45,821 bases of DNA from an uncultured Paracoccus sp. (GTDB lineage: Bacteria; Pseudomonadota; Alphaproteobacteria; Rhodobacterales; Rhodobacteraceae): contig CAKTBJ010000025.1 of assembly GCA_934533075.1 (NCBI GenBank), forward strand, positions 1 through 45,821. The letters run 5' to 3'. Below, piece by piece: positions 21,439 to 33,285 of the stretch (the stretch's first letter is position 1; each line of letters opens with the position of its first letter). The notes beneath the pieces are model-generated. The model saw only the letters and a list, made by a program, of their open reading frames with translations, did no database searches and was not told the origin of the DNA. The position numbers were made by a program, and so were the translations under genes.

Positions 21439-22410
21439 ATGATCCGCACCCTTACCGCCAGCGCCCTTGCCCTCGCGGTCGCCACGCCCGCCCTGGCCGA
21501 AAGCTGGGACATGCCGGTCGCCTATCCGGCCACCAACTACCTGACATTGATCGCACAGGACTTCGCCAGCTGCGTCAGCGACAAGACCGGCGGGGCGCTG
21601 ACGATCACCGTCCATCCGAACGGCTCGCTGTTCAACGGCGCCGACATCAAGCGCGCCGTGCAGACCGGCCAGGCCCAGATCGGCGAGCGCCTGCTGTCCG
21701 CCCATGAGAACGAGAACGCGCTGTTCGGCTATGATTCGGTGCCCTTCATCGCCAGCAGCTTCGACGCCTCGAACGCGCTGGCGGAGGCCGTGAAGCCCTC
21801 GCTGACCAGCCTGCTGGAGTCGCAGAACCTCGTGCTGATCTATAGCGCGCAATGGGCGCCGCAGGGCCTTTACACCAAGATCGACGTGAATTCGGCCGCC
21901 GATCTCAGGGGCATCAAGTTCCGCGCCTACAATGCCGCGACCGCCCGCATCGCCGCGATGGCCGGCATGGAGCCGGTGCAGATCGAGGCCGCCGAACTGG
22001 CCCAGGCGCTGGCCACCGGCGTCGTGGAAAGCTTCCTCTCCTCCGGTTCGACCGGCGTGGACAGCAAGGTCTGGGAAAGCCTGACGCATTGGTATGACCT
22101 GAAGGCCTGGCTGCCGCGCAACACCGTCTTCGCCAACAAGGACGCCTTCGAGGGCCTGCCCGAGGACCAGCAGGCCGCCATCGTGGCCTGCGGCGAGGCG
22201 GCGTCCGTGCAGGGCGAGGCCACGGTGCGCGAGGTCGCGGGCCAACTGGTCGACGAGCTGCGCGCGAACGGGATGACGGTGGAGGAGCCGAGCGACCAGC
22301 TCCGGGCCGATTTCGAGGGCTATGGCGAGGTCATGCTGGAGGAGTGGCTGGCCAAGGTCGACGACGCCACCCGGACGGCGGTCGAAGGCTATATCGCCAG
22401 CCAGCAATAA
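21439..22410 (+). CDS. dctP: TRAP transporter substrate-binding protein, DctP family
   Basis: A 323-residue periplasmic binding protein. The signal peptide (MIRTLTASALALAVATPALA) is cut near residue 20. DLRGIKFRAYNAATA carries the conserved carboxylate-binding Arg of DctP proteins, and EAAELAQALATGVVES matches the usual hinge segment. AGGGAGAACAAGACGA gives the ribosome site, 41 bp after the FAD oxidase stop. It pairs with the DctQ and DctM genes that follow. Because nearly all DctP ligands bear a carboxylate, the substrate here is probably an acidic amide or N-acyl amino acid. Ligand unknown. Confidence 0.88.
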   Translation: MIRTLTASALALAVATPALAESWDMPVAYPATNYLTLIAQDFASCVSDKTGGALTITVHPNGSLFNGADIKRAVQTGQAQIGERLLSAHENENALFGYDSVPFIASSFDASNALAEAVKPSLTSLLESQNLVLIYSAQWAPQGLYTKIDVNSAADLRGIKFRAYNAATARIAAMAGMEPVQIEAAELAQALATGVVESFLSSGSTGVDSKVWESLTHWYDLKAWLPRNTVFANKDAFEGLPEDQQAAIVACGEAASVQGEATVREVAGQLVDELRANGMTVEEPSDQLRADFEGYGEVMLEEWLAKVDDATRTAVEGYIASQQ

Positions 22411-22419
22411 TCGCAGGAG

Positions 22420-22444
22420 CGCCGCGCCCCATCAGGGCGCGGCG
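22420..22444 (+). terminator. Intercistronic hairpin after dctP
   Basis: CGCCGCGCCC (22420-22429) pairs with GGGCGCGGCG (22435-22444) around CATCA, 9 bp after the dctP stop; no T-run follows. A second arm pair, GGCGGGC (22462-22468) and GCCCGCC (22482-22488), lies downstream. Hairpins at this site commonly keep binding-protein mRNA in excess over the membrane subunits, acting as partial terminator or RNA stabiliser. Confidence 0.55.
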
Positions 22445-22580
22445 TATCGAATCGGGGACGGGGCGGGCGATCGCCGGTCCCGCCCGCCTGCGAACCGGCT
22501 GCTGCCCACAGGCAGGGACCGGCCGACCCTTCGGCAAGGCGGCGATACCGCCCGGCCCCCATCCATGAGCAGAGGTTCCC

Positions 22581-23120
22581 ATGACGGATCATTCCTCTCC
22601 CGACGAAGGCCCGCTGCGCCGCGCGCTCGACGGCCTTTATAAACTCGGCGCCTATATCTCCTGCATCTGCCTGGCGGCGATGCTGATCGTGATCACCGCG
22701 CAGATGGTCGCCCGCTGGACGCATGTCATGTTCCCCGGCGGTGCCGAATATGCCGGCTACCTGATGGCGGCGGCGTCCTTCTTCTCGTTCGCCTATGCGC
22801 TGAACCAGGGCAGCCATATCCGCGTCGGCCTGGTGCTGAACCTGCTGGGCGAGAACCGGAAATACATGGAATACGTCTGTATCGCCGTGGGCACGCTGCT
22901 GACGGTCCTGCTGGCGCGCTATTCGATCAAGATGGTGATGACCTCGCATCGCTTCGGCGATGTCAGCCAGGGCCAGGACATGATGCCGCTGTGGATCGTG
23001 CAGACGCCGATGGCGGTCGGCGCGGTCCTGCTGGCTTTGTGCTTCATCGACAATTTCGTCACCCTCGTCCTTACCGGCAACAGCCCCGTCGCCTCGAGCG
23101 AGCTGGACAACAGCGAATAG
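22581..23120 (+). CDS. dctQ: TRAP transporter small membrane subunit, DctQ
   Basis: A 179-residue protein with four predicted membrane helices, starting at about residue 20, and the motif EYAGYLMAAASFFSFAYAL with GSHIRVGLVL (around 53-82), which is the conserved core of DctQ small subunits. It joins the DctM subunit and helps dock the loaded binding protein. AGAGGTTCCC before the ATG is the ribosome site. The gene is 170 bp after dctP, with an intercistronic hairpin, and 16 bp before dctM. Confidence 0.88.
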   Translation: MTDHSSPDEGPLRRALDGLYKLGAYISCICLAAMLIVITAQMVARWTHVMFPGGAEYAGYLMAAASFFSFAYALNQGSHIRVGLVLNLLGENRKYMEYVCIAVGTLLTVLLARYSIKMVMTSHRFGDVSQGQDMMPLWIVQTPMAVGAVLLALCFIDNFVTLVLTGNSPVASSELDNSE

Positions 23121-23136
23121 CACAGGAAGCAGGCAT

Positions 23137-24447
23137 ATGAGTGGAGAACTTCTACCGATTCTGATCTTCCTCGGGGTGCTGTTCACCCTGCTGGGCGCCG
23201 GCGTCTGGGTCGGCATCGCCCTGATGGGCGTGGCCTGGGTGGGGATGGAGCTGTTCACCTCGCGCCCGGTGGGCGACGCGATGGTGACGGTGATGTGGCG
23301 CTCGTCCTCGTCCTGGACGCTGACGGCGCTGCCGCTGTTCATCTGGATGGGCGAGATCCTTTACCGGACACGACTGTCCGAGGACATGTTCAAGGGCCTT
23401 GCGCCCTGGATGGCGCGGCTGCCCGGCGGGCTGCTGCATACGAACGTGGTGGGCTGCACGGTGTTCGCGGCCGTGTCCGGCAGCTCGGCGGCGACGCTGG
23501 TCACCGTGGGCAAGATGTCCATACCGGAGCTGCGCAAGCGCAACTTCCCCGACAAGCAGATCCTCGGCACCCTGGCCGGGGCGGCGACGCTGGGGCTGAT
23601 GATTCCGCCCAGCCTGACGCTGATCGTCTATGGCGTGACCGTCAACGAATCCATCACCAAGCTGTTCATCGCCGGGATCGTTCCGGGCCTGGTTCTGGCC
23701 GCCTTGTTCATGGGCTGGATTGCCCTGCAACCGCTGGTCAACAAGAACTGGAACCCCAACCCCGAACCGGAGATGACCTTCGCGCAGAAATTCGCGGCAT
23801 CGCGCTATCTGATTCCGCTGTTCATCCTGATCGCGGCGGTGATCGGCTCGATGTATACGGGTCTGGCGACGGCGACCGAGGCCGCGGCCATCGGCGTTCT
23901 GGGCGCGCTGACGCTGGCGCTGTTCCAGGGGTCGCTGAACTTCCGCAGCCTGACGGAAAGCCTGATGGGCGCGGTGCTGACCTCGGCGATGATCGCGCTG
24001 ATCCTGGCCGGCGCGGCCTTCCTGTCGCTGGCGATGGGCTTCACCGGCCTGCCGCGCATGCTGGCCGAGACGATCACCGGCTGGGGGCTGACCAAGGTCC
24101 AGCTGATCCTGGCGCTGATGATGTTCTTTATCGTCCTGGGCTGCTTCCTCGACGGGATTTCCATCGTGGTGCTGACGATGGCGGTGATCGAGCCGCTGAT
24201 CCGTCAGGCCGGCATCGACATCATCTGGTTCGGCATCTTCATCGTCGTGGTGATCGAGATGGCGCAGATCACGCCGCCGGTGGGCTTCAACCTGTTCGTG
24301 TTGCAGGGGATGACCAGGCGGCCGCTGGGCTATATCGCCTGGGCGGCGCTGCCGATGTTCCTGATCATGATGCTGATGGTGGTCATCCTGATGGCCTTCC
24401 CGGAACTGGCCACCTGGCTGCCCGCCCAGATCCGCGGCCCCGCGTGA
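23137..24447 (+). CDS. dctM: TRAP transporter large membrane subunit, DctM
   Basis: A 436-residue sodium-coupled permease with about eleven helices. The LPGGLLHTNVVGCTVFAAVSGSSAATLVTVG stretch (split near residues 90-120), the IPPSLTLIVYGV segment and the late ITPPVGFNLFVLQG are conserved DctM landmarks that form the substrate and sodium path. It is the transport-catalysing subunit of the dctPQM set. Usual family length and 16-bp spacing from dctQ indicate a normal operon. It is followed after 7 bp by a BASS-like permease gene. Confidence 0.9.
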   Translation: MSGELLPILIFLGVLFTLLGAGVWVGIALMGVAWVGMELFTSRPVGDAMVTVMWRSSSSWTLTALPLFIWMGEILYRTRLSEDMFKGLAPWMARLPGGLLHTNVVGCTVFAAVSGSSAATLVTVGKMSIPELRKRNFPDKQILGTLAGAATLGLMIPPSLTLIVYGVTVNESITKLFIAGIVPGLVLAALFMGWIALQPLVNKNWNPNPEPEMTFAQKFAASRYLIPLFILIAAVIGSMYTGLATATEAAAIGVLGALTLALFQGSLNFRSLTESLMGAVLTSAMIALILAGAAFLSLAMGFTGLPRMLAETITGWGLTKVQLILALMMFFIVLGCFLDGISIVVLTMAVIEPLIRQAGIDIIWFGIFIVVVIEMAQITPPVGFNLFVLQGMTRRPLGYIAWAALPMFLIMMLMVVILMAFPELATWLPAQIRGPA

Positions 24448-24454
24448 GGCCGTG

Positions 24455-25420
24455 ATGGTGCAGGCGCTTCTCGTCCTCGCGGCGAGGCATGCCAAGCCCC
24501 TGTTGATCGCCGGCCTCGCGGCCGGCGTTCTTCTGCCCGGCCTGGCCGGCGCCATCGCCGCGCAGCTGCCGCTGGCGGCGGCGGGGCTGCTGGCGCTGGC
24601 GGCGCTGCGCATCGGCCCGCGCAGCGCGCTGGGACTGGGCGGCGGCCTGCGCTTCTCGCTGGGCGCGGTGGCGGTGTTGCAGATGGCGCTGCCGCTGGTC
24701 GTGGCGGGCGTGCTGCTGGGTTTCGGCTGGACCGGGCCGCTGGCCACGGCGCTGGTGTTGATGGCCGCCGGGGCGCCGATTTCCAGCACGCCGAACCTGA
24801 CCATCATGTCGGACGGCGACCCGGCGCCGGCGCTGCGCATGGTGATCCTGGGCACGGCGGCGCTGCCGCTGACCCTGGTGCCGGCCCTGTGGCTGTGGCC
24901 GGCCTTCGGCGATTTCACGGCGGTGATGGCCGCGGCCGGACGCACCATCGGCGTGCTGGCGGTTTCGGTGGGCTTCGGCTTTGGCCTCAGAGCCTGGCTG
25001 TTCCCCGACCCGACGCCCCGGCAACTGGCGGCCATCGACGGGTTTTCGGCGCTGGCGATGGCGCTGGCCGTCACCGGGCTGATGACCGCGCTGCGGCCGG
25101 CGCTGATGGAAACGCCGATGCTGGCGCTGTGGGTGATGGTCGCGGCCTTCGCCTCGAATTTCGGGCTTCAGATCGCCACCGCCTTCGCCCTGCGCGGGCG
25201 CAGCGACGCCACGGGCCTCGCCATCGGCGCCGGCAATCGCAGCCTGCTGCTGTTCCTGGCGGTGCTGCCGGCCTCGTTCACCGCGCCACTGCTGCTGTTC
25301 GTCGCCTGCTATCAGGTGCCAATGTATCTGACCCCGATCCTGCTGGGGCGGTTCTATCGCTACCGGATCAGCCTCCCGCGCCGGCCGGCGGCACCCGGCG
25401 GCGGCGGCGGCGGCGGTTGA
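24455..25420 (+). CDS. BASS-like (bile acid:sodium symporter-related) membrane protein
   Basis: A 321-residue membrane protein with nine to ten hydrophobic segments. GAGNRSLLLFLAVLP and CYQVPMYLTPILL near the C-terminus resemble the GNRNLALLLA and YQLPIYLTP segments of BASS-related transporters common in alphaproteobacteria. The ATG at 24455 sits 7 bp after dctM with GAGG before it; a GTG directly upstream is possible. The protein ends in seven Gly encoded by a GGC run (25397-25417), a likely slippage-prone site. Being last in the operon, it may export or import a product of the pathway. Substrate unknown. Confidence 0.62.
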   Translation: MVQALLVLAARHAKPLLIAGLAAGVLLPGLAGAIAAQLPLAAAGLLALAALRIGPRSALGLGGGLRFSLGAVAVLQMALPLVVAGVLLGFGWTGPLATALVLMAAGAPISSTPNLTIMSDGDPAPALRMVILGTAALPLTLVPALWLWPAFGDFTAVMAAAGRTIGVLAVSVGFGFGLRAWLFPDPTPRQLAAIDGFSALAMALAVTGLMTALRPALMETPMLALWVMVAAFASNFGLQIATAFALRGRSDATGLAIGAGNRSLLLFLAVLPASFTAPLLLFVACYQVPMYLTPILLGRFYRYRISLPRRPAAPGGGGGGG

Positions 25421-25428
25421 GGGACAGG

Positions 25429-26307
25429 TCAGCCGGCCTTGGCCAGCACCTCCTGGATGCGGGCATGGGCGGCCTCGCCGCCGATGCCCTCGGCCCACAG
25501 CCGGTCCGTGACCGCGCGGTGGCTGGCCACGGCCTCGGGCGCCGGCGTCACCGTGCCCACGCCCAGCGTGATATTGGGCCGCAGCCCCAGCGCGAAGGGG
25601 CTGACGACCAGCCAGGCCGCATCGGGGCGGTCCACGATCTCGAAGCTGGTGGCGGCGCCGGGCGCCTCGACCAGCCGCAGCTCGGCCCGCCCGCCCGGCG
25701 GCGCCAGCGCCAGCCGCGCCACCCCCTCGACCTCGGCGCGGGCATGGCGGCGGCGGGCCTCCGCGATCGAGGGCGGCAGGCTGTCCTGCCCGGTCAGCCC
25801 GTGCTCCAGGAAGCGGGTCAGGTCGGCGGTGGTGACGATGCTGTGCAGCCGCATCCGGCCGGTGGCAAAGCCGCGCCGGCGCCGGCGCAGCGCCTCCATC
25901 ATCCGGGTGATCTGGTCGGGCGTGGCCTGTCCCTGCTCGAACAGCGCATCCTTCAGCACCCGGTCATAGGCCGGGGTCGTCAGCAGATAGCTGACCGGGC
26001 TGAACACGCCGGTGATGCAGTCGGCCCCGGTCTCCAGATCGGTCATCCGCGACAGCAGCGCCGCCGCATCGTCGAGGTATTCGCTGCCGATGCCCAGCAA
26101 CTGGTCGAGGCTGGCGCCCAGCTCTGCCGCGATGCGGCCCAGCACCTCCAGCTTGGCGATCTCGCCCTTTTCGGCGCGGTAGAGGGCCGCGCGCGAGATG
26201 CCCAGCCGCTGGGCGAGGTCGTCCGGGCCGATCCCCTGCCGGTCGCGATGCGCGCGCAGCCGCGCGCCGATCCTGCGGGTCGCATCCGGTTCGACTGCCA
26301 GACTCAT
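25429..26307 (-). CDS. XRE-family regulator with C-terminal sensor-like domain
   Basis: A 292-residue regulator. An N-terminal helix-turn-helix (IGARLRAHRDRQGIGPDDLAQRLGISRAALYRAEKG, split across residues 13-48) is of Cro/CI/XRE type; the remaining 220 residues resemble no domain I know, and could bind a ligand. The ATG at 26307 follows GCGAGG; longer readings have no support. It is divergent from a TRAP-PyrK-PyrD operon 151 bp away, with an inverted repeat straddling the operon's -35/-10 region, so it is the best candidate regulator of that operon. It is convergent with the BASS-like gene, 8 bp apart. Confidence 0.78.
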   Translation of the reverse strand: MSLAVEPDATRRIGARLRAHRDRQGIGPDDLAQRLGISRAALYRAEKGEIAKLEVLGRIAAELGASLDQLLGIGSEYLDDAAALLSRMTDLETGADCITGVFSPVSYLLTTPAYDRVLKDALFEQGQATPDQITRMMEALRRRRRGFATGRMRLHSIVTTADLTRFLEHGLTGQDSLPPSIAEARRRHARAEVEGVARLALAPPGGRAELRLVEAPGAATSFEIVDRPDAAWLVVSPFALGLRPNITLGVGTVTPAPEAVASHRAVTDRLWAEGIGGEAAHARIQEVLAKAG

Positions 26308-26378
26308 CAACGCACCTCGCCTGCCCTTTTTTCCAAGGCTGCAAGCCGCCATCGCAAAAGGCAAGTGTCTAACTTTTG

Positions 26379-26417
26379 AGATTTGCGCTTGACGCCTGCT
26401 TGCCCGGCGGCAAATCT
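26379..26417 (+). promoter_or_regulatory. Promoter with flanking inverted repeat for the PyrK/PyrD TRAP operon
   Basis: TTGACG (26389-26394) and AAATCT (26412-26417) with a 17-base spacer form a good sigma-70-type promoter, 42 bp before the dctP start. AGATTTGC (26379-26386) and GCAAATCT (26410-26417) form a perfect inverted repeat whose left arm abuts the -35 and whose right arm covers the -10, arms 31 bp apart centre to centre. A repressor such as the adjacent XRE protein could block the promoter there. Confidence 0.55.
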
Positions 26418-26458: not shown

Positions 26459-27475
26459 ATGCTGACCCGCCGCCTGTTCACGGCCGCCGCCTCGACGGCT
26501 GTGGCCGCCCTTCTGGCCCTTCCGGCCAGTGCCGCCGACTATGTGGCCAAGATCGGCCATCTGGAATCGAACCTGCAATCGCGCCATGTCGCGCTGGAGG
26601 GTGTCGCCGCCGCCGTGGCCGAGCGCACGAATGGCGCGGTGGAGTTCCAGCTTTTCCCGCAGGGCCAGCTGGGCCAGCAGCGCGAGATGACCGAGGGCGT
26701 GCAGATGGGCGCGCTGGAGGCCACGGTGGCGCCGGCGGCCTTCCTGGGCGGCTTCAACCCCGTCGTGTCGATCATGGACATCCCGTTCCTGCTGCCCGAG
26801 GACGAGGACAAGGCCCGCGAATTGCTGGACGGCCCCTTCGGCCAGCAGCTTTGCCAGAGCTTTGACGCGCGCGGCGTCACCTGCCTCGGCCTGTGGCCGA
26901 ACGGGCGCAAGAGCCTGACCTCGAACCGGCCCCTCGCCTCGGTCGAGGATTTCGCCGGCCAGCGGTTCCGGGTGATGGACAGCAAGATCCTGATCGAGCA
27001 GTTCGCCGCGCTGGGCGCCTCGGCCGTCGCCATCGACTTTTCCGAGCTGTATACCTCGTTGCAGACCGGGGTGATCGAGGGGCAGGAGAACCCGCTCGAT
27101 ACCATCCAGCGCATGAAATACAACGAGGTGCAGAAGCATCTGGTCGTGTCGAACCACGGCGCGATGGAGGATGTGATCCTGTTCAACACCGCCTGGTGGG
27201 AAAGCCTGCCGGAGGAATACCAGACCATCATCGTCGAGGAGTTCACCAATGCCGTGCCCGACCTGATCGCCCACAAGGCGGCGGCGGTGGATGCGGCGCT
27301 GGCCGCGCTGACCGATGCCGGCATGGAGGTGCGCGAGCTGACCGAGGAGGAGCGCGCGGCCCTCATCGAGCGCATGGAAGGCCCGACCCGCGAGGCCTAT
27401 CTGGCGCTGGCCGGCGACGAGGGCAAGGCCCTGCTGGACACCTACGAGGCCGAGATCGCCAAGCTGGGCGACTGA
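26459..27475 (+). CDS. dctP: TRAP transporter substrate-binding protein, second DctP
   Basis: A 338-residue DctP protein with a twin-Arg-like start MLTRRLFTAAASTAVAALLA and a signal cleavage after ASA (residue 25). FAGQRFRVMDSKI holds the conserved ligand Arg, and GVIEGQENPLDTI is the usual hinge region. The ATG at 26459 follows GGGAGATCAACG; the preceding in-frame ATG is part of that ribosome site. It should capture a carboxylated small molecule; because PyrK, PyrD1B and a carbamoylase follow in the same operon, orotate or a related pyrimidine acid is a fair guess. A strong terminator follows the stop. Confidence 0.88.
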   Translation: MLTRRLFTAAASTAVAALLALPASAADYVAKIGHLESNLQSRHVALEGVAAAVAERTNGAVEFQLFPQGQLGQQREMTEGVQMGALEATVAPAAFLGGFNPVVSIMDIPFLLPEDEDKARELLDGPFGQQLCQSFDARGVTCLGLWPNGRKSLTSNRPLASVEDFAGQRFRVMDSKILIEQFAALGASAVAIDFSELYTSLQTGVIEGQENPLDTIQRMKYNEVQKHLVVSNHGAMEDVILFNTAWWESLPEEYQTIIVEEFTNAVPDLIAHKAAAVDAALAALTDAGMEVRELTEEERAALIERMEGPTREAYLALAGDEGKALLDTYEAEIAKLGD

Positions 27476-27482
27476 CGGAACC

Positions 27483-27505
27483 GGCGCCCGCATCATGCGG
27501 GCGCC
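27483..27505 (+). terminator. Terminator-like hairpin after the second dctP
   Basis: GGCGCCCGCA (27483-27492) pairs perfectly with TGCGGGCGCC (27496-27505) around TCA, followed by CTTTT, 7 bp after the dctP stop. It should stop most transcripts there and keep dctP mRNA in excess over the downstream genes. Confidence 0.8.
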
Positions 27506-27896
27506 CTTTTCGCTCCGCCGGTTCGGCAGCGGATCACGGCCCGGCGGCCCGCACCGCCCACCGTCACGGCCGCCGATCCGGCCAATGCCGAGGCCACAGG
27601 CTTTCGATACGACCCCGCACCCGACCGCCGACCCGCCATTCGGCACCGACCCGCCAGCCCGGCCCGTCACCACGACCCAGGCCCCGCATCGGAGACCGAC
27701 AACCGGGACCAGCATCACAGGCAGCATCGCGCCATCCGGCGCCAACCTGCCGAACCCGACGACGACCCGACCACCTGCCCCGCCATCGGAGACCGACCAC
27801 GGGGCAGCAGCGCAACCATCCCGCGATGCGGTCCCCGGACCCCCGCCCGTCAACCGCCACCGCCGCCCCGGCAGCCCCAGCCCATCGGAGGCCCCC
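27506..27896. repeat. Degenerate C-rich tandem repeat between dctP and dctQ
   Basis: This 391-bp gap is C-rich and G-poor on the plus strand and holds no convincing gene. CATCGGAG recurs at 27687, 27784 and 27883 (periods 97 and 99), the first two followed by ACCGAC; the third copy is the true ribosome-site context of dctQ. The gap thus looks like decayed tandem duplications of the dctQ start region. The C-over-G bias would also suit Rho loading on an untranslated leader. Confidence 0.55.
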
Positions 27897-28403
27897 TTGT
27901 CCCGTATCCTTCACCATCTGGCCCGCCTGGAGGGGCTGGCGGTGGCGCTGACCTTCCTGACGATGGTGGCGCTGTTCACCGCCAACGTCGCCGCGCGCAG
28001 CTTTCTGCCCACCGTCGCGCCCCGGCTGTTCTGGATCGACGAGGCGGTGCGGCTGATGATGCTGTATCTGGTGTTCCTGTCCTGCGGGCTGGCCTTGCAG
28101 CAGGGCCGCCATGTCGGCGTCTATGCCTGGCGCGAGCGCATCACGCGGCGCACCGGCCTGCCGCTGCGGCCGCTGATCGACGCGGTGGGCACGCTGATGT
28201 GCCTCTATTTCGCGTGGATCAGCCTGAAATCGGTGCTGTTCGTGGCCAAAAGCGGCCAGATCATGACCTCGGTCGGGATCTCGGCGAAATGGATCTACGT
28301 GGCGCCGATGCTGGGCTTCCTGCTGATGTCGCTGCGCTTCGCGGCCTCGCTGGCCGGTGTCATCGACCGCTTTTCCCCGCAGATGCAGGAGGCCGGCGAA
28401 TGA
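27897..28403 (+). CDS. dctQ: TRAP transporter small membrane subunit, second DctQ (TTG start)
   Basis: A 168-residue protein with four membrane helices and the DctQ core WIDEAVRLMMLYLVFLSCG with GRHVGVYAW. The start is TTG at 27897: GGAGG stands 5 bp before it, the next residues SRILHHLARLEG fit the family, and no ATG exists at this position. The rare start codon would lower output of this subunit. It belongs to the second dctPQM set, separated from dctP by a terminator-like hairpin and a repeat-rich gap. The stop overlaps a small ORF as ATGA. Confidence 0.85.
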   Translation: MSRILHHLARLEGLAVALTFLTMVALFTANVAARSFLPTVAPRLFWIDEAVRLMMLYLVFLSCGLALQQGRHVGVYAWRERITRRTGLPLRPLIDAVGTLMCLYFAWISLKSVLFVAKSGQIMTSVGISAKWIYVAPMLGFLLMSLRFAASLAGVIDRFSPQMQEAGE

Positions 28404-28639
28404 CCCGTTCCGCCGCATCGCCCGACCGCACCGCCCCCGGCGACCGGCCCATCAGCCACGGGCGCGGCCACCCCGTCGCCCGCACCCGGCAGTCTCATCA
28501 GGGAAACCGGCGAGTGATCCGCATTGCCGCATCGCCTGATTGCCGCGCCACCCCCGGCCCATCGACCACGGAAACGGCCCTGATGGTCACGCCGTCAGCC
28601 GCGCCCCGCAGCCGTTTCATCCGGGAGGTCCGCGCATGA
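28400..28639 (+). CDS. 79-residue linker ORF between dctQ and dctM, built of junction repeats
   Basis: An ORF beginning with ATGA overlap on dctQ and ending with ATGA overlap on dctM. Its start MTRSAASPDRTAP and its middle RVIRIAASPDCRATP match each other, and the middle also matches the dctM start MIRIALVAG. Thus three copies of the junction stand at 28400, 28514 and 28636 (periods 114 and 122), all in frame. The product is Pro/Arg-rich with no fold expected. It probably arose by tandem duplication and now carries ribosomes from dctQ to dctM. Whether it is translated is untested. Confidence 0.5.
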   Translation: MTRSAASPDRTAPGDRPISHGRGHPVARTRQSHQGNRRVIRIAASPDCRATPGPSTTETALMVTPSAAPRSRFIREVRA

Positions 28640-29919
28640 TCCGCATCGCCCTCGTCGCCGGTCTCGCCGCGGCCCTGCTGGTCGGCGGATTCGAGATGTT
28701 CCTCGTGCTCGGCGCCGCCGGGCTGGGGGCGAAACTGGCCTTCTTTCCCAATATCGTCGATACGGCGCTGGTGCAGAAGATGGTGGGCGCGGTCAACCAT
28801 TCGACCCTGCTGGCCATCCCCTTCTTCATCTTCGCGGCCGAGCTGATGGGCGACGGCCAGATCGCCCGGCGCCTGACCGCCGCGATGCGGGCCTTCCTCG
28901 GGCACCTGCCCGGCGGCATGGGCTATACCGCCATCGGCGGGGCGATGGCCTTCGGCTCGGTCTCCGGCTCGGCGCCGGCCACCGTCGCCGCCCTCGGTAA
29001 TCTGGTCTATCCCGAGATGCGCAAGGAAGGGTTCTCCGAGAAGTTCTCGCTGGGGCTGATCGCCTCGGCGGCGGAAACCGCGCTGCTGATCCCGCCCTCG
29101 ATCACCATCATCATCTATGCCTGGATGACCGGCACCTCGGTCGTGGACCTGTTCATGGCCGGGCTGGCCATCGGCATCGTGCTGGGGCTGGCCTTCGCGA
29201 TCTACACCTGGTGGGAGGCGCGGCGCGGCGGCATCGCCGGGGCCGAGCGCATGGGCTGGCCGGCCCGGCTGCGGGCGCTGCGGGAAGCCGTCTGGGCGCT
29301 GGGCATGCCGGTCATCATCATGGGCGGTATCTATTCGGGCTATCTGACGCCCACCGACGCGGCGGCGGTCAGCGTGGTCTATGCGATCCTGGTCGAGATG
29401 CTGGTCTATCGCTCGATGGGGCTTTCGCGGCTGATGGCGGTGACGCAGCGGGCCGCGGTCTCGACCGCGATCATCTTCATCCTGCTGGCGGTGGGCGGCA
29501 TCCTGGCCTATATCATCACGCTGGCGCGGCTGCCGGACATGCTGCTGATGCTCCTCAACGACATCGGCGCGAACTGGGTGCTGTTCCTGATGATGATGAA
29601 CGTGGTCTTCCTGATCGCGGGCATGTTCATCGACCCCAACAGCGCGCTGATCATCCTGGTGCCGACGCTGTTCCCCGTGGCGATGTCGCTGGGCATCGAC
29701 CCGGTGCATTTCGGCATGATCGTGACGCTGAACATCACCATCGGCATGATCACCCCGCCCTTCGGGCTGGACCTGTTCGTGGCCTCCTCGACCCTGCGCA
29801 AGCCCGTGCTGACGATCATTCAAGGCGTCTGGCCCTTCGTGGGCGTGAATATCGTGGTGCTGCTGCTGGTCAGCTATATCCCCGGCCTGTCCACCTTCCT
29901 GCCCGCGTTGCTGAAATGA
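28636..29919 (+). CDS. dctM: TRAP transporter large membrane subunit, second DctM
   Basis: A 427-residue DctM permease with about eleven helices. LPGGMGYTAIGGAMAFGSVSGSAPAT (split near 85-112), LIPPSITIIIYAW and ITPPFGLDLFVASS are the conserved transport-path segments. Only about one third identical by eye with the first DctM of this window, so the two sets are old paralogues, not recent copies. CGGGAGGTCCGCGC gives a ribosome site. The stop overlaps the PyrK-like gene as ATGA, which strongly links transport to the dehydrogenase that follows. Confidence 0.9.
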   Translation: MIRIALVAGLAAALLVGGFEMFLVLGAAGLGAKLAFFPNIVDTALVQKMVGAVNHSTLLAIPFFIFAAELMGDGQIARRLTAAMRAFLGHLPGGMGYTAIGGAMAFGSVSGSAPATVAALGNLVYPEMRKEGFSEKFSLGLIASAAETALLIPPSITIIIYAWMTGTSVVDLFMAGLAIGIVLGLAFAIYTWWEARRGGIAGAERMGWPARLRALREAVWALGMPVIIMGGIYSGYLTPTDAAAVSVVYAILVEMLVYRSMGLSRLMAVTQRAAVSTAIIFILLAVGGILAYIITLARLPDMLLMLLNDIGANWVLFLMMMNVVFLIAGMFIDPNSALIILVPTLFPVAMSLGIDPVHFGMIVTLNITIGMITPPFGLDLFVASSTLRKPVLTIIQGVWPFVGVNIVVLLLVSYIPGLSTFLPALLK

Positions 29920-30731
29920 GCGTCGACCTGCTGACCCGCGATGCGACGATCCGCGTGCAGGCGCTGCCGGTGCGCTCGAACCTGCCGGTGAACGCGGATT
30001 ACCGCCTGATGCTGCTGGACGCGCCCGAGGCGCTGCTGGACGCTTGCCGTCCGGGGCAGTTCTTTCACCTGCTTTGCCCCTCCGCGGGGCGCGACGGCCC
30101 GGTGCTGCGCCGCCCGATGAGCATCTACGGCACATCGGACGGCACGCTGCGCTTCCTCTACAAGGTCGCCGGCAAGGGCACCGCGACGCTGGCCGGGCTG
30201 GCGCCGGGCGACCGGCTTTCGGTGGTCGGACCCTTGGGACGCGGCTTTCATCTGGACCCGGACTGGCGCCATATCCTGCTGCTGGCGCGGGGGGTGGGGC
30301 TGGCGACGCTGGCGCCTCTGGCCCGCGCGGCGCGGCTGAGGGGGATCGCGGTGACGGCCCTGTGCTCGGCCCGCGCGCCGGAATTCCTGATGTCGCTGGA
30401 CCTGTTCCGGGCCGAGGGCGCGCAGGTCGTCCCCCTGCTGGACAGCGACGGCACCGCCGCCGTCGAGCATGTCGAGCCGCTGGTCGCCACCCATCTGGCC
30501 GCCGGCGTCGATGCGGTCTTCACCTGCGGCAGCGCCCGCCTGCTGCGCCTGCTGCAACGCCAATGCGCCGCGCATGGCGTGCCCGGACAGGTCGCGCTGG
30601 AGCAGCAGATGGCCTGCGGCATCGGCATGTGCCAATGCTGCGTGCGGCCCTTCCGCCGGGGCGAGGCGATGCTGTCGCTGCGCGTCTGCCGCGACGGCCC
30701 GGTCTTCGACCTGATGGAGGCCGTGGCATGA
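29916..30731 (+). CDS. pyrK: PyrK-like dihydroorotate dehydrogenase electron-transfer subunit
   Basis: A 271-residue ferredoxin-NADP reductase-type flavoprotein. RRPMSIYG (65-72) binds FAD, the middle region binds NAD(H), and the C-terminal cysteines Cys234, Cys239, Cys242 and Cys258 (CGIGMCQCC and later VC) are the [2Fe-2S] ligands of PyrK. In class 1B dihydroorotate dehydrogenases PyrK links NAD(H) to the PyrD flavin, so the pair can run in the reducing direction. It overlaps dctM and the pyrD gene as ATGA. Alphaproteobacteria normally make UMP with a class 2 PyrD without PyrK, so a PyrK here suggests a catabolic task. Confidence 0.87.
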   Translation: MSVDLLTRDATIRVQALPVRSNLPVNADYRLMLLDAPEALLDACRPGQFFHLLCPSAGRDGPVLRRPMSIYGTSDGTLRFLYKVAGKGTATLAGLAPGDRLSVVGPLGRGFHLDPDWRHILLLARGVGLATLAPLARAARLRGIAVTALCSARAPEFLMSLDLFRAEGAQVVPLLDSDGTAAVEHVEPLVATHLAAGVDAVFTCGSARLLRLLQRQCAAHGVPGQVALEQQMACGIGMCQCCVRPFRRGEAMLSLRVCRDGPVFDLMEAVA

Positions 30732-31672
30732 TCGACATGACGGTCCAGATCGGCGACCTGCGGCTGAAGAACCCGGTGATGCCCGCCTCGGGCACGTTCT
30801 CGGAGGAAATGGCCGAGGTGTTCGACCTGAATTGCCTCGGCGCGCATGTGCTCAAGACCATCACGCGCGAGCGGCGCAGCGGCAACCCCACGCCGCGCGT
30901 CTGCGAGGTGCAGGGCGGCATGCTGAACGCCATCGGCATTCCGTCGAAGGGGCTGGAAGCCTTTATTTCCAAGACCATCCCCTTCTATGGCCGCTATGAC
31001 GTGCCGCTGGTGGTGTCGATCTCGGCCCCAACGGTGCGGGATTTCGCGGAACTGGCGGCGGCGGTCAGCCTGCCCGGCGTGGCGGCGATCGAGGCCAATA
31101 TCTCCTGCCCGAATATCGAGGAGGACGGCAAGGCCTTCGCCATCCGCCCCGCCTCGACCTACGAGGTCGTGGCCCGGCTGCGCGAGGCGACCGCCCTGCC
31201 GCTCTGGGTCAAGCTGACCCCGAACACCGGCGAGACGCCCGAGGTCGCCCGCGCGGTCGAGACCGCCGGCGGCGATGCGCTGGTGGTGGCCAACACCATT
31301 CTGGCGATGGCCGTGGATACCCGCACCCGCCGCGCGCGGCTGGGCAACCTGATGGGCGGGCTGTCCGGCCCCGCGCTGAAACCCATCGCGCTGCGCATGG
31401 CCTATCAATGCGCCCGCGCCACCAGCCTGCCGGTGATCGGCTGCGGCGGCATCTCCACCGCCGAGGACGCGCTGGAATACATGATCGCCGGCGCCTCGGC
31501 GGTGCAGGTCGGCACCGAGACCTTCCTCGATCCGCTGGCCCTGCCGCGCGTGATCGAGGGCCTTGCCGCCCGCGCCGCCGAGGACGGCATCCCCGCCATC
31601 CGCGACTATATCGGCAGCCTCGACGATGCCGCCCAGCCGGAGGAAACCGTGTTCATGCAGGCCGCACCATGA
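30728..31672 (+). CDS. pyrD: Dihydroorotate dehydrogenase, class 1B catalytic subunit
   Basis: A 314-residue TIM-barrel flavoprotein. Class 1 is shown by the catalytic Cys127 in NISCPN (124-129). The residues that hold orotate in relatives appear kept: Lys43 (VLKTIT), Asn67 and Gly70 (NAIGIPSKG), Asn124, Asn129 and the Asn189-Thr190 pair (VVANTILAM). GCGGIST and AGASAVQVGT give the FMN phosphate site. With PyrK it interconverts orotate and dihydroorotate using NAD(H). It sits inside a TRAP operon and is ATGA-coupled to PyrK and to a carbamoylase, so breakdown of orotate rather than UMP synthesis is likely. A related dihydropyrimidine substrate cannot be excluded. Confidence 0.87.
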   Translation: MIDMTVQIGDLRLKNPVMPASGTFSEEMAEVFDLNCLGAHVLKTITRERRSGNPTPRVCEVQGGMLNAIGIPSKGLEAFISKTIPFYGRYDVPLVVSISAPTVRDFAELAAAVSLPGVAAIEANISCPNIEEDGKAFAIRPASTYEVVARLREATALPLWVKLTPNTGETPEVARAVETAGGDALVVANTILAMAVDTRTRRARLGNLMGGLSGPALKPIALRMAYQCARATSLPVIGCGGISTAEDALEYMIAGASAVQVGTETFLDPLALPRVIEGLAARAAEDGIPAIRDYIGSLDDAAQPEETVFMQAAP

Positions 31673-33285
31673 GAAACGAACCCGTCCCCGCGCTGGCCGC
31701 GCGCCTGTTTCACGAGATCGCGGCGCTGTCGCCGGACATCCGCGGCGTCTCGCGTCCCGCCTATTCCGCCGTGGAAACCGCCGTGCTGGCGCATCTGGCC
31801 GAGGCCGCCCGTGCCGAGGGGCTGGAGGTCTGGCAGGACGCGGCGCTGAACCTCTATGCCGGCCTGCCGGGAACGCGCGATGCCGGGGGGGTGATGCTGG
31901 TCGGCAGCCATGCCGACTCCGTGCCGCAGGGCGGGAATTTCGACGGGCTGGCCGGGGTGATCGCCGGGCTGTGCGTGCTGGTGCGCGCCGCGCGCGAAGG
32001 GGTGACGCCACCCCGCCCCATCCACCTGATCGCCATGCGCGGCGAGGAAAGCCCGTGGTTCGGCCTGCCCTATCTCGGCTCGCGCATCGTTACCGGGCAG
32101 ATGACGGCGGACGACCTCGCCCGTCCGCATCGCGACGACGGGCGGCCGCTGTCGGCGCATCTGGCCGATCTGGGCATCCCGGTGGAGGAGATTCGCGCCG
32201 GGCGGCCCATGATCGACCTCGCACGCCTCGCCGGCTATGTGGAACTGCATATCGAGCAAGGCCCGGTGCTGATCGACCTGAACGCCCCGGTGGCCGCGGT
32301 CTCGGGCATTCGCGGCAACCTGCGCCACAACCGCATCCTTTGCGAGGGCGTGGCCGGCCATTCCGGCGCCGTGCCGCAGGACATGCGCCACGACGCGGTG
32401 CTGGCGGTGGCGGAGCTGCTGGCGCTGATGGAGGCGCATGCGCTGGATTGGGTCGAGGGTGGCGACGATCTGGTCTTTACCTGCGGCATGATCGGCACCG
32501 ACCCGGCACGCCACGCCCTGACCCGCATTCCCGACGAGGTGGGATTCTCCACCGACATGCGCAGCCTCGACGAATCGGTGCTGACCCGCTTCCACGCGCT
32601 GATGGAAACCGAGATGGCGGCCATCGCCGCCCGCCGCGGCGTGCGCTTCGCCCCCGACGCGATCCAGCGCGCCCACCCCGCCACCTGCGCCCCGGAACTG
32701 GTCGAGGCAGCGACGCTGGCCATGCTGCGCCGGCGCATCCGCCCGGTGACGATGGCCTCGGGCGCCGGGCACGATGCGGCCATGTTCGCGCAGGCCGGGG
32801 TGCCGGCGGTGATGATGTTCGTCAGGAACGCCAACGGCTCGCACAATCCCGACGAGGCGATGGATGCGGGGGACTTTGAAATTGCCTGCGAAACGCTTTA
32901 TGACCTGCTGTGCCGTGACCCGATGGAGGACACCTTGGACGCCGCCCCGCCCCCCGTTTTCGCCGACCTCGCCCAGACCGTGCGCCAGCATGGCGGCGGC
33001 ACCTATGCCTTCGAGGCCGCCGCCCGCGCCGCGCGCGAACTGGCCATCGACCATCCCGGCCATGCGCTGGCGCTGAATCTCGCGGCGATGGCCGCGACCC
33101 AGGTGGCGCGGCGCTTCGACGACCAGGCGGTGACCGCCAGCCAGGCCGCCGAGCAACTGGCCGGGTTCGAGCGCGGCCTGGCCCGCCTCGACGCCGCCGC
33201 CGCCGAGGCGGACGCCACGCGCCGGCTTCAGATGCTGAACGACCTCGCCGCGCAATTGCTGGATGTGGAGCGCAACGAGGGCTAG
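31669..33285 (+). CDS. M20 Zn-dependent N-carbamoyl-amino-acid/ureido hydrolase with C-terminal extension
   Basis: A 538-residue protein. Residues 1-415 form an M20 amidohydrolase of the N-carbamoyl-amino-acid hydrolase/allantoate amidohydrolase group: GSHADSVPQGGNFDG (79-93; His81, Asp92), RGEESPWF (124-131; Glu126-Glu127), the hallmark ELHIEQGPVL and SGAGHDA near the end. It should split a ureido acid; N-carbamoyl-aspartate would fit the adjacent orotate enzymes. The last 120 residues are helical and Ala-rich and are not present in typical members of about 410-420 residues; their role is unknown. ATGA overlap with pyrD puts it in the same operon. No dihydroorotase gene is seen here. Confidence 0.82.
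   Translation: MRNEPVPALAARLFHEIAALSPDIRGVSRPAYSAVETAVLAHLAEAARAEGLEVWQDAALNLYAGLPGTRDAGGVMLVGSHADSVPQGGNFDGLAGVIAGLCVLVRAAREGVTPPRPIHLIAMRGEESPWFGLPYLGSRIVTGQMTADDLARPHRDDGRPLSAHLADLGIPVEEIRAGRPMIDLARLAGYVELHIEQGPVLIDLNAPVAAVSGIRGNLRHNRILCEGVAGHSGAVPQDMRHDAVLAVAELLALMEAHALDWVEGGDDLVFTCGMIGTDPARHALTRIPDEVGFSTDMRSLDESVLTRFHALMETEMAAIAARRGVRFAPDAIQRAHPATCAPELVEAATLAMLRRRIRPVTMASGAGHDAAMFAQAGVPAVMMFVRNANGSHNPDEAMDAGDFEIACETLYDLLCRDPMEDTLDAAPPPVFADLAQTVRQHGGGTYAFEAAARAARELAIDHPGHALALNLAAMAATQVARRFDDQAVTASQAAEQLAGFERGLARLDAAAAEADATRRLQMLNDLAAQLLDVERNEG

Follow-up and report, generated by a model that had tools for sequence, protein, structure and literature searches.

Orotate is an intermediate which is made and excreted by cells. 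Clostridium (Zymobacterium) oroticum ferments it, converting orotate to dihydroorotate and then to carbamoyl-aspartate, and OroP, an orotate transporter of lactococcal plasmids which consists of a single transporter, is used as a selection tool. The chemistry of orotate breakdown is old knowledge. We describe here an operon from an uncultured Paracoccus sp. (assembly GCA_934533075.1, contig CAKTBJ010000025.1; the whole stretch analysed, 45,821 nt, is called the window) which, judging from its sequence, we consider with a probability of about 85% to be an accessory operon for the uptake of orotate and for its use as a source of nitrogen and carbon. Its six genes occupy positions 26459-33285 of the + strand: dctP, dctQ and dctM, for a tripartite ATP-independent periplasmic (TRAP) transporter, pyrK, class 1B pyrD and a gene of the M20 carbamoylase family.

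The proposed pathway shares with the C. oroticum route the steps from orotate through dihydroorotate to carbamoyl-aspartate. Operons of the window type differ from it in their uptake by TRAP, major facilitator superfamily (MFS) or ATP-binding cassette (ABC) transporters, in their own regulator, in their M20 hydrolase with its extra domain, and in hosts which probably respire. Like OroP, some relatives of the operon are plasmid-borne and would serve orotate uptake, but OroP is not a TRAP transporter. With the class 1B PyrDB-PyrK enzyme (1ep1) the window proteins have in common the two-subunit make-up, the catalytic Cys, the Fe-S cysteines and the substrate-site residues; unlike those of 1ep1, their genes adjoin a transporter and a carbamoylase-family gene, and relatives carry a class 2 enzyme too. 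In the open-access papers searched for orotate breakdown or transport we found no description of the operon, of its operator-like site, of the exchange of transporters or of the extra domain.

The predicted pathway and its transporter

An earlier reading of the same DNA, the first-pass annotation, had described six genes on one strand with ATGA overlaps from dctM to the hydrolase gene. All are in place, and the overlaps can be read directly at dctM/pyrK (29916), pyrK/pyrD (30728) and pyrD/M20 (31669), while dctQ and dctM are separated by 232 bases. In the pathway that we propose, DctPQM would import orotate and PyrK-PyrD would reduce it to dihydroorotate with NADH. The dihydroorotase PyrC, presumably encoded elsewhere in the genome of this organism and inside the operon in many relatives, would open the ring to give N-carbamoyl-L-aspartate, which the M20 enzyme would split into aspartate, CO2 and ammonia, so that the reversible earlier steps would be pulled forward. 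Until orotate or one of its products appears, the divergent XRE protein would keep the operon repressed by way of an inverted repeat next to the -35 box. The route from orotate import to aspartate had already been proposed in the first-pass annotation, and it is now supported by the identity of DctP to an orotate-bound protein (60%), by pyrC, pyrE and aspA in related operons and by a separate class 2 PyrD in relatives.

That protein is 4NN3, a TRAP binding protein whose crystal structure contains orotic acid (Desal_2161 of Maridesulfovibrio salexigens, known here from its structure and ligand; review PMC5812351), so that the earlier remark that no TRAP system for orotate had been described does not hold. 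DctP and 4NN3 have in common the fold, an unusual Lys in place of Arg and the carboxylate Arg, and we predict that DctP is an orotate-specific binding protein of the 4NN3 type. DctP and DctM score over the cut-offs of their families; DctQ, without any NCBIfam match, is assigned solely by its similarity to related loci, and its gene probably starts at TTG 27897, behind GGAGG.

The dehydrogenase subunits

PyrD reaches 344.2 bits with the NCBIfam equivalog NF005574 (cut-off 269), its nearest PDB chains are of class 1B (1ep1 type), and its nearest named relative is that of Paracoccus sp. S-4012 (83% identity). Residues K43, N67, N124, C127, K162 and N189 are invariant in 18 of 18 aligned sequences, which bears out the earlier statement that PyrD keeps Cys127 and the Asn and Lys residues holding orotate; we take C127 to be the catalytic Cys and the other five to be substrate-site residues. 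PyrK matches the Fe-S domain of dihydroorotate dehydrogenase B (PF10418, 44.4 against a cut-off of 23.9) and the chain 1ep1_B (expect value, E, of 1e-24), and the four iron-sulfur Cys reported before are indeed present, as C-x4-C-x2-C...C. In addition, all 18 of the 18 close relatives aligned have the PyrD loop IPSKG (residues 71-75, window 30938-30952) unchanged, whereas the three class 1B PDB chains aligned read LQNPG there; this loop may mark a catabolic branch of PyrD.

A reductive pathway for uracil or thymine, of the dihydropyrimidine dehydrogenase type, would use the same types of reaction in the same order, and there is a weak match to PreA (117.9 bits). We find it hardly credible for this operon: the PreA cut-off of 335 is missed while that of dihydroorotate dehydrogenase is reached, the partner enzyme tested from a related TRAP-type locus, L002, scores over the cut-off as a dihydroorotase, and uracil offers a TRAP binding protein no carboxylate.

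Gene context in related loci

With an alignment of 18 PyrD sequences as the query, we scanned one genome per species and kept the best 80 of at least 567 confirmed relatives; these loci were picked by the similarity of PyrD alone, their neighbours playing no part. Within 8 kb of pyrD, counting matches of at least 60 bits (E 1e-4 for a small protein discussed below), we found pyrK in all 80 loci, the M20 gene in 66, an XRE-like regulator in 51, pyrE in 48, the small protein in 39, pyrC in 31, aspA in 10 and a class I dihydroorotase/allantoinase-like gene in 5. These counts are lower bounds because contig ends cut some loci. Either pyrC or pyrE is present in 52 of the 66 loci with an M20 gene, and one representative each of PyrE, dimeric PyrC and AspA scored over its cut-off.

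On a strict count, dctM (at least 50%) stands in 21 loci, an MFS gene (at least 40%) in 25 and an ABC transporter with its binding protein in 9. Together 53 loci have a close transporter of one of these types, and all 53 have the M20 gene. TRAP, MFS and ABC transporters stand in for one another across the related loci. The MFS representative is nearest to the aromatic acid/H+ symport subfamily, under its cut-off. As a control we took 20-kb stretches round 20 class 2 pyrD genes of the same genomes: at the same threshold they gave only ABC ATPases, in 3 of them, with one weak MFS match (45 bits) under the threshold.

Some loci depart from this scheme in detail. Those of Serratia and Symbiopectobacterium (L019, L022) have a more distant M20 protein (31-32% identity to that of the window), and their MFS gene is on the opposite strand. 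A NitT-type ABC cluster lies beside the operon in 4 of the 80 loci, read by eye. In L004 (16911-17780) and L105 (2359-3126) such a cluster includes a nucleoside-phosphorylase-like gene, with operator-like sites nearby; the L105 gene matches PF01048. Perhaps the product of this gene releases orotate from orotidine or a similar nucleoside.

Class 2 PyrD and dihydroorotases in carrier genomes

We searched 25 genomes which hold 26 of the 80 loci (one of these, in G025, being without an M20 gene). A class 2 PyrD over cut-off is found in 24 of them. The remaining genome (G023, Pullulanibacillus, locus L073) carries, besides the operon copy, another class 1B pyrD at a different place, with matches to pyrC and pyrE close to it. 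In the family of G011 (Celeribacter, locus L028), 100 of 100 genomes drawn have a class 2 PyrD, and 4 of the 100, G011 included, have a PyrD of the window type.

These figures bear on the possibility that PyrK-PyrD serves the synthesis of uridine monophosphate (UMP) as an alternative dihydroorotate dehydrogenase, working for example without a respiratory chain, the transporter and the hydrolase being coincidental or serving salvage. Gram-positive bacteria use class 1B enzymes for biosynthesis, pyrC and pyrE often adjoin, and in three genomes no PyrE and no dimeric PyrC over cut-off was found besides those of the operon. We nevertheless judge this explanation very improbable, since nearly all the carrier genomes searched, and every genome drawn from one family, have the class 2 enzyme, since the sole genome without it over cut-off has a further class 1B enzyme, since a PyrD of the window type is infrequent in that family and occurs on plasmids, and since an enzyme destroying carbamoyl-aspartate would oppose UMP synthesis.

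Dihydroorotases over cut-off, inside or outside the operon, are of the dimeric PyrC type in 21 of the 25 genomes and of the other type in 23; five genomes (G017, G018, G020, G021, G022) have two dimeric PyrC, one of them within the operon. The earlier proposal that a housekeeping PyrC supplies the step missing from the operon is thus plausible, as dihydroorotases occur in most of the relatives' genomes, and a PyrC is predicted from them for the organism of the window.

The hydrolase and its additional domain

The M20 protein has 538 amino acids, of which the M20 models reach about residue 417, leaving about 110. It scores 248.7 with the hydantoinase/carbamoylase model TIGR01879 (cut-off 204) and stays under the cut-offs of the allantoate amidohydrolase/Zn-dependent hydrolase subfamilies (NF009527, 360.3 against 461; NF006771, 342.1 against 399). 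Its nearest solved relative is 3n5f, an N-carbamoyl-L-amino acid hydrolase. We aligned 61 sequences, from the window and from 60 of 65 loci, the other five being excluded with less than 38% identity. H81, D92, E127, H194 and H392, to which we presume Zn roles, are conserved in at least 95% of them. R215, in the motif GIRGN, is also conserved in the operon sequences, while the residues at this place in four PDB alignments are A, V, V and A; we suggest that it may hold the second carboxylate of carbamoyl-aspartate, N-carbamoyl-L-aspartate being the predicted substrate.

The extra residues form a helical domain without a named family, which the first-pass annotation had missed and which is new here. 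A hidden Markov model (HMM) built from the small proteins and the end of the window M20 protein matches 42 of the 80 loci besides the window. Elsewhere the domain is mostly encoded by a separate small gene of the operon; fusions to M20 occur in the window, in locus L016, on Agrobacterium pAt1 and in five database proteins besides that of the window, 77-92% identical over this domain. Database proteins of similar length matching at E <= 1e-5 number 247; among the 120 listed, none has a precomputed Pfam domain, and the names given are "hypothetical" or "uncharacterized" protein. The AlphaFold model of the small protein of locus L005 is a confident all-helical fold (predicted local distance difference test, pLDDT, 93.8) and gave no clear structural relative. 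The fusion and the co-occurrence suggest that the domain works with M20, and a regulatory or coupling role is our guess. The breakdown of carbamoyl-aspartate alongside UMP synthesis through the same compound raises the question of how the two coexist, to which this domain is a candidate answer.

The regulator and the operator-like site

The divergent XRE gene facing dctP very likely belongs to the operon unit. Its product, a predicted repressor of the operon, is 42% identical over 268 residues to the regulator beside the operon of a Paracoccus albus plasmid. A site pattern, TCTCA-N4-TGAGA (or T/A variants), was read from nine loci; in all 80 loci (1,438,378 bases) it gives 35 sites in 25 loci, 17 of which lie outside those nine, and 32 of the 35 sites are at most 500 bases from a mapped gene, on the right side. 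The sites stand before a TTGAC box, upstream of TRAP, MFS, ABC and pyrK-led operons alike. The spacing to this box is 7 bases in the window and 6-8 in relatives. When three mismatches are allowed, the window contains 2 sites against 0.18 expected, a number reached by 2 of 100 shuffles. The match in the window alone is weak evidence; the shared site would be the target of the XRE protein, with orotate or a product as the inducer.

Points that weigh against orotate use

Several results count against the reading of the operon as one for orotate use. Within the window we found no match to the operon copies of pyrC, pyrE or aspA of relatives, and both the PyrC and the class 2 PyrD of this organism are deduced from relatives. 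PyrK is under all four NCBIfam PyrK equivalog cut-offs listed (best 117.1 against 270), and we call the gene PyrK-like because of this. The name of the M20 model does not tell the substrate; 14 of the 80 loci have no M20 match within 8 kb, some being cut by contig ends, and 13 of the 66 loci with M20 are without any of the three close transporter types. No operator-like site was found in 55 of the 80 loci. In G001, G007 and G008 no pyrE and no dimeric pyrC over cut-off was found other than the operon copies, although each of these genomes also has a dihydroorotase of the second type over cut-off; the operon pyrE and pyrC are possibly biosynthetic there, and have less weight as catabolic evidence. 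Finally, in three loci (L062, L066, L080) PyrKD of this type has no M20 gene nearby and is accompanied by genes for hydantoinase A, hydantoinase B or a molybdenum hydroxylase. They possibly belong to other cyclic imide pathways, which means that PyrKD of this type need not always indicate orotate breakdown.

Such neighbours also speak for a related compound, such as dihydroorotate, carbamoyl-aspartate or another carboxylated pyrimidine or hydantoin, as the main substrate in place of orotate, as do the many substrates of M20 carbamoylases and a cyclic amidohydrolase of a Bacillota locus (L073) which is over both the allantoinase and the dihydroorotase cut-offs. We hold this to be unlikely, given the closeness of DctP to the orotate-bound 4NN3, with the unusual Lys in common, and given that pyrE, whose substrate is orotate, is present in 48 of the 80 loci.

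With orotate as the substrate, the operon is a candidate gene set for bacterial orotate consumption, and annotations placing these PyrD copies in UMP synthesis would be corrected. A wider proposal is more tentative, and we give it somewhat less than an even chance: that these operons form a widespread, mobile, separately regulated orotate-catabolic system, in which a single enzyme core is combined with any of three interchangeable transporter types and which has an XRE repressor of its own, with TCTCA-N4-TGAGA as the operator. A previously unnamed helical protein, in the lineage of the window fused to the hydrolase of carbamoyl-aspartate, would in this view cooperate with that enzyme and perhaps guard the UMP intermediates of the cell from drain.

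Plasmids and neighbouring genes

In a tblastn search of 72,556 plasmid records, PyrD of the window type (E <= 1e-60) was found in 83, and Klebsiella accounts for 53 of these. The Paracoccus albus plasmid carries xre, dctPQM, pyrK, pyrD, M20, pyrE and the small gene, with identities to the window of 63% for dctP, 58% for pyrK, 64% for pyrD, 54% for M20 and 42% for xre.

On the Klebsiella plasmids (L104, L106, L107), pyrK, pyrD, M20, pyrC, xre and the small gene are preceded by a divergent MFS gene and adjoin lacY-lacZ. At least 80% of the stretch from pyrK to the small gene is present at >= 99% identity in 53 plasmid records, and at least 80% of an 11.3-kb stretch including lacY and lacZ in 49; megablast gave no match in the E. 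coli genomes. The source is milk or mastitis milk in 9 of the 53 records and a human sample in many others, figures to be read with the shared descent of the copies in mind and without a background rate. Milk, including that of ruminants, contains orotate according to PMC12191573, where the mg/mL units look erroneous, and the main text of PMC12724306, on lac plasmids of Klebsiella mastitis, has neither "orot" nor "pyrD".

Table 1. Predicted features of the operon and its upstream region (window positions)
Feature	Position	Strand	Remarks
XRE-type regulator, 292 amino acids, predicted operon repressor	25429..26307	-	HTH_31 and HTH_3 matches over cut-off
Operator-like site TCTAACTTTTGAGA	26368..26381	.	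One mismatch to TCTCA-N4-TGAGA
-35-like TTGACG	26389-26394		7 bases after operator-like site
dctP, TRAP solute-binding protein, predicted orotate-specific	26459..27475	+	
dctQ, TRAP small permease	27897..28403	+	Resembles dctQ of related loci; start uncertain
dctM, TRAP large permease	28636..29919	+	TIGR00786 over cut-off
pyrK-like electron-transfer subunit (FAD, 2Fe-2S, NADH)	29916..30731	+	PF10418 over cut-off
pyrD, class 1B dihydroorotate dehydrogenase catalytic subunit	30728..31672	+	NF005574, TIGR01037 over cut-off
M20 carbamoylase-family hydrolase, predicted N-carbamoyl-L-aspartate amidohydrolase, with extra domain fused	31669..33285	+	TIGR01879 over cut-off
C-terminal helical domain of M20 protein, about 110 amino acids	32941..33282	+	Own HMM

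Two further elements lie upstream in the window, outside the operon unit as far as seen: a protein of 322 amino acids (24452-25420), with no Pfam or NCBIfam match, and a second TRAP system (21439-24447).

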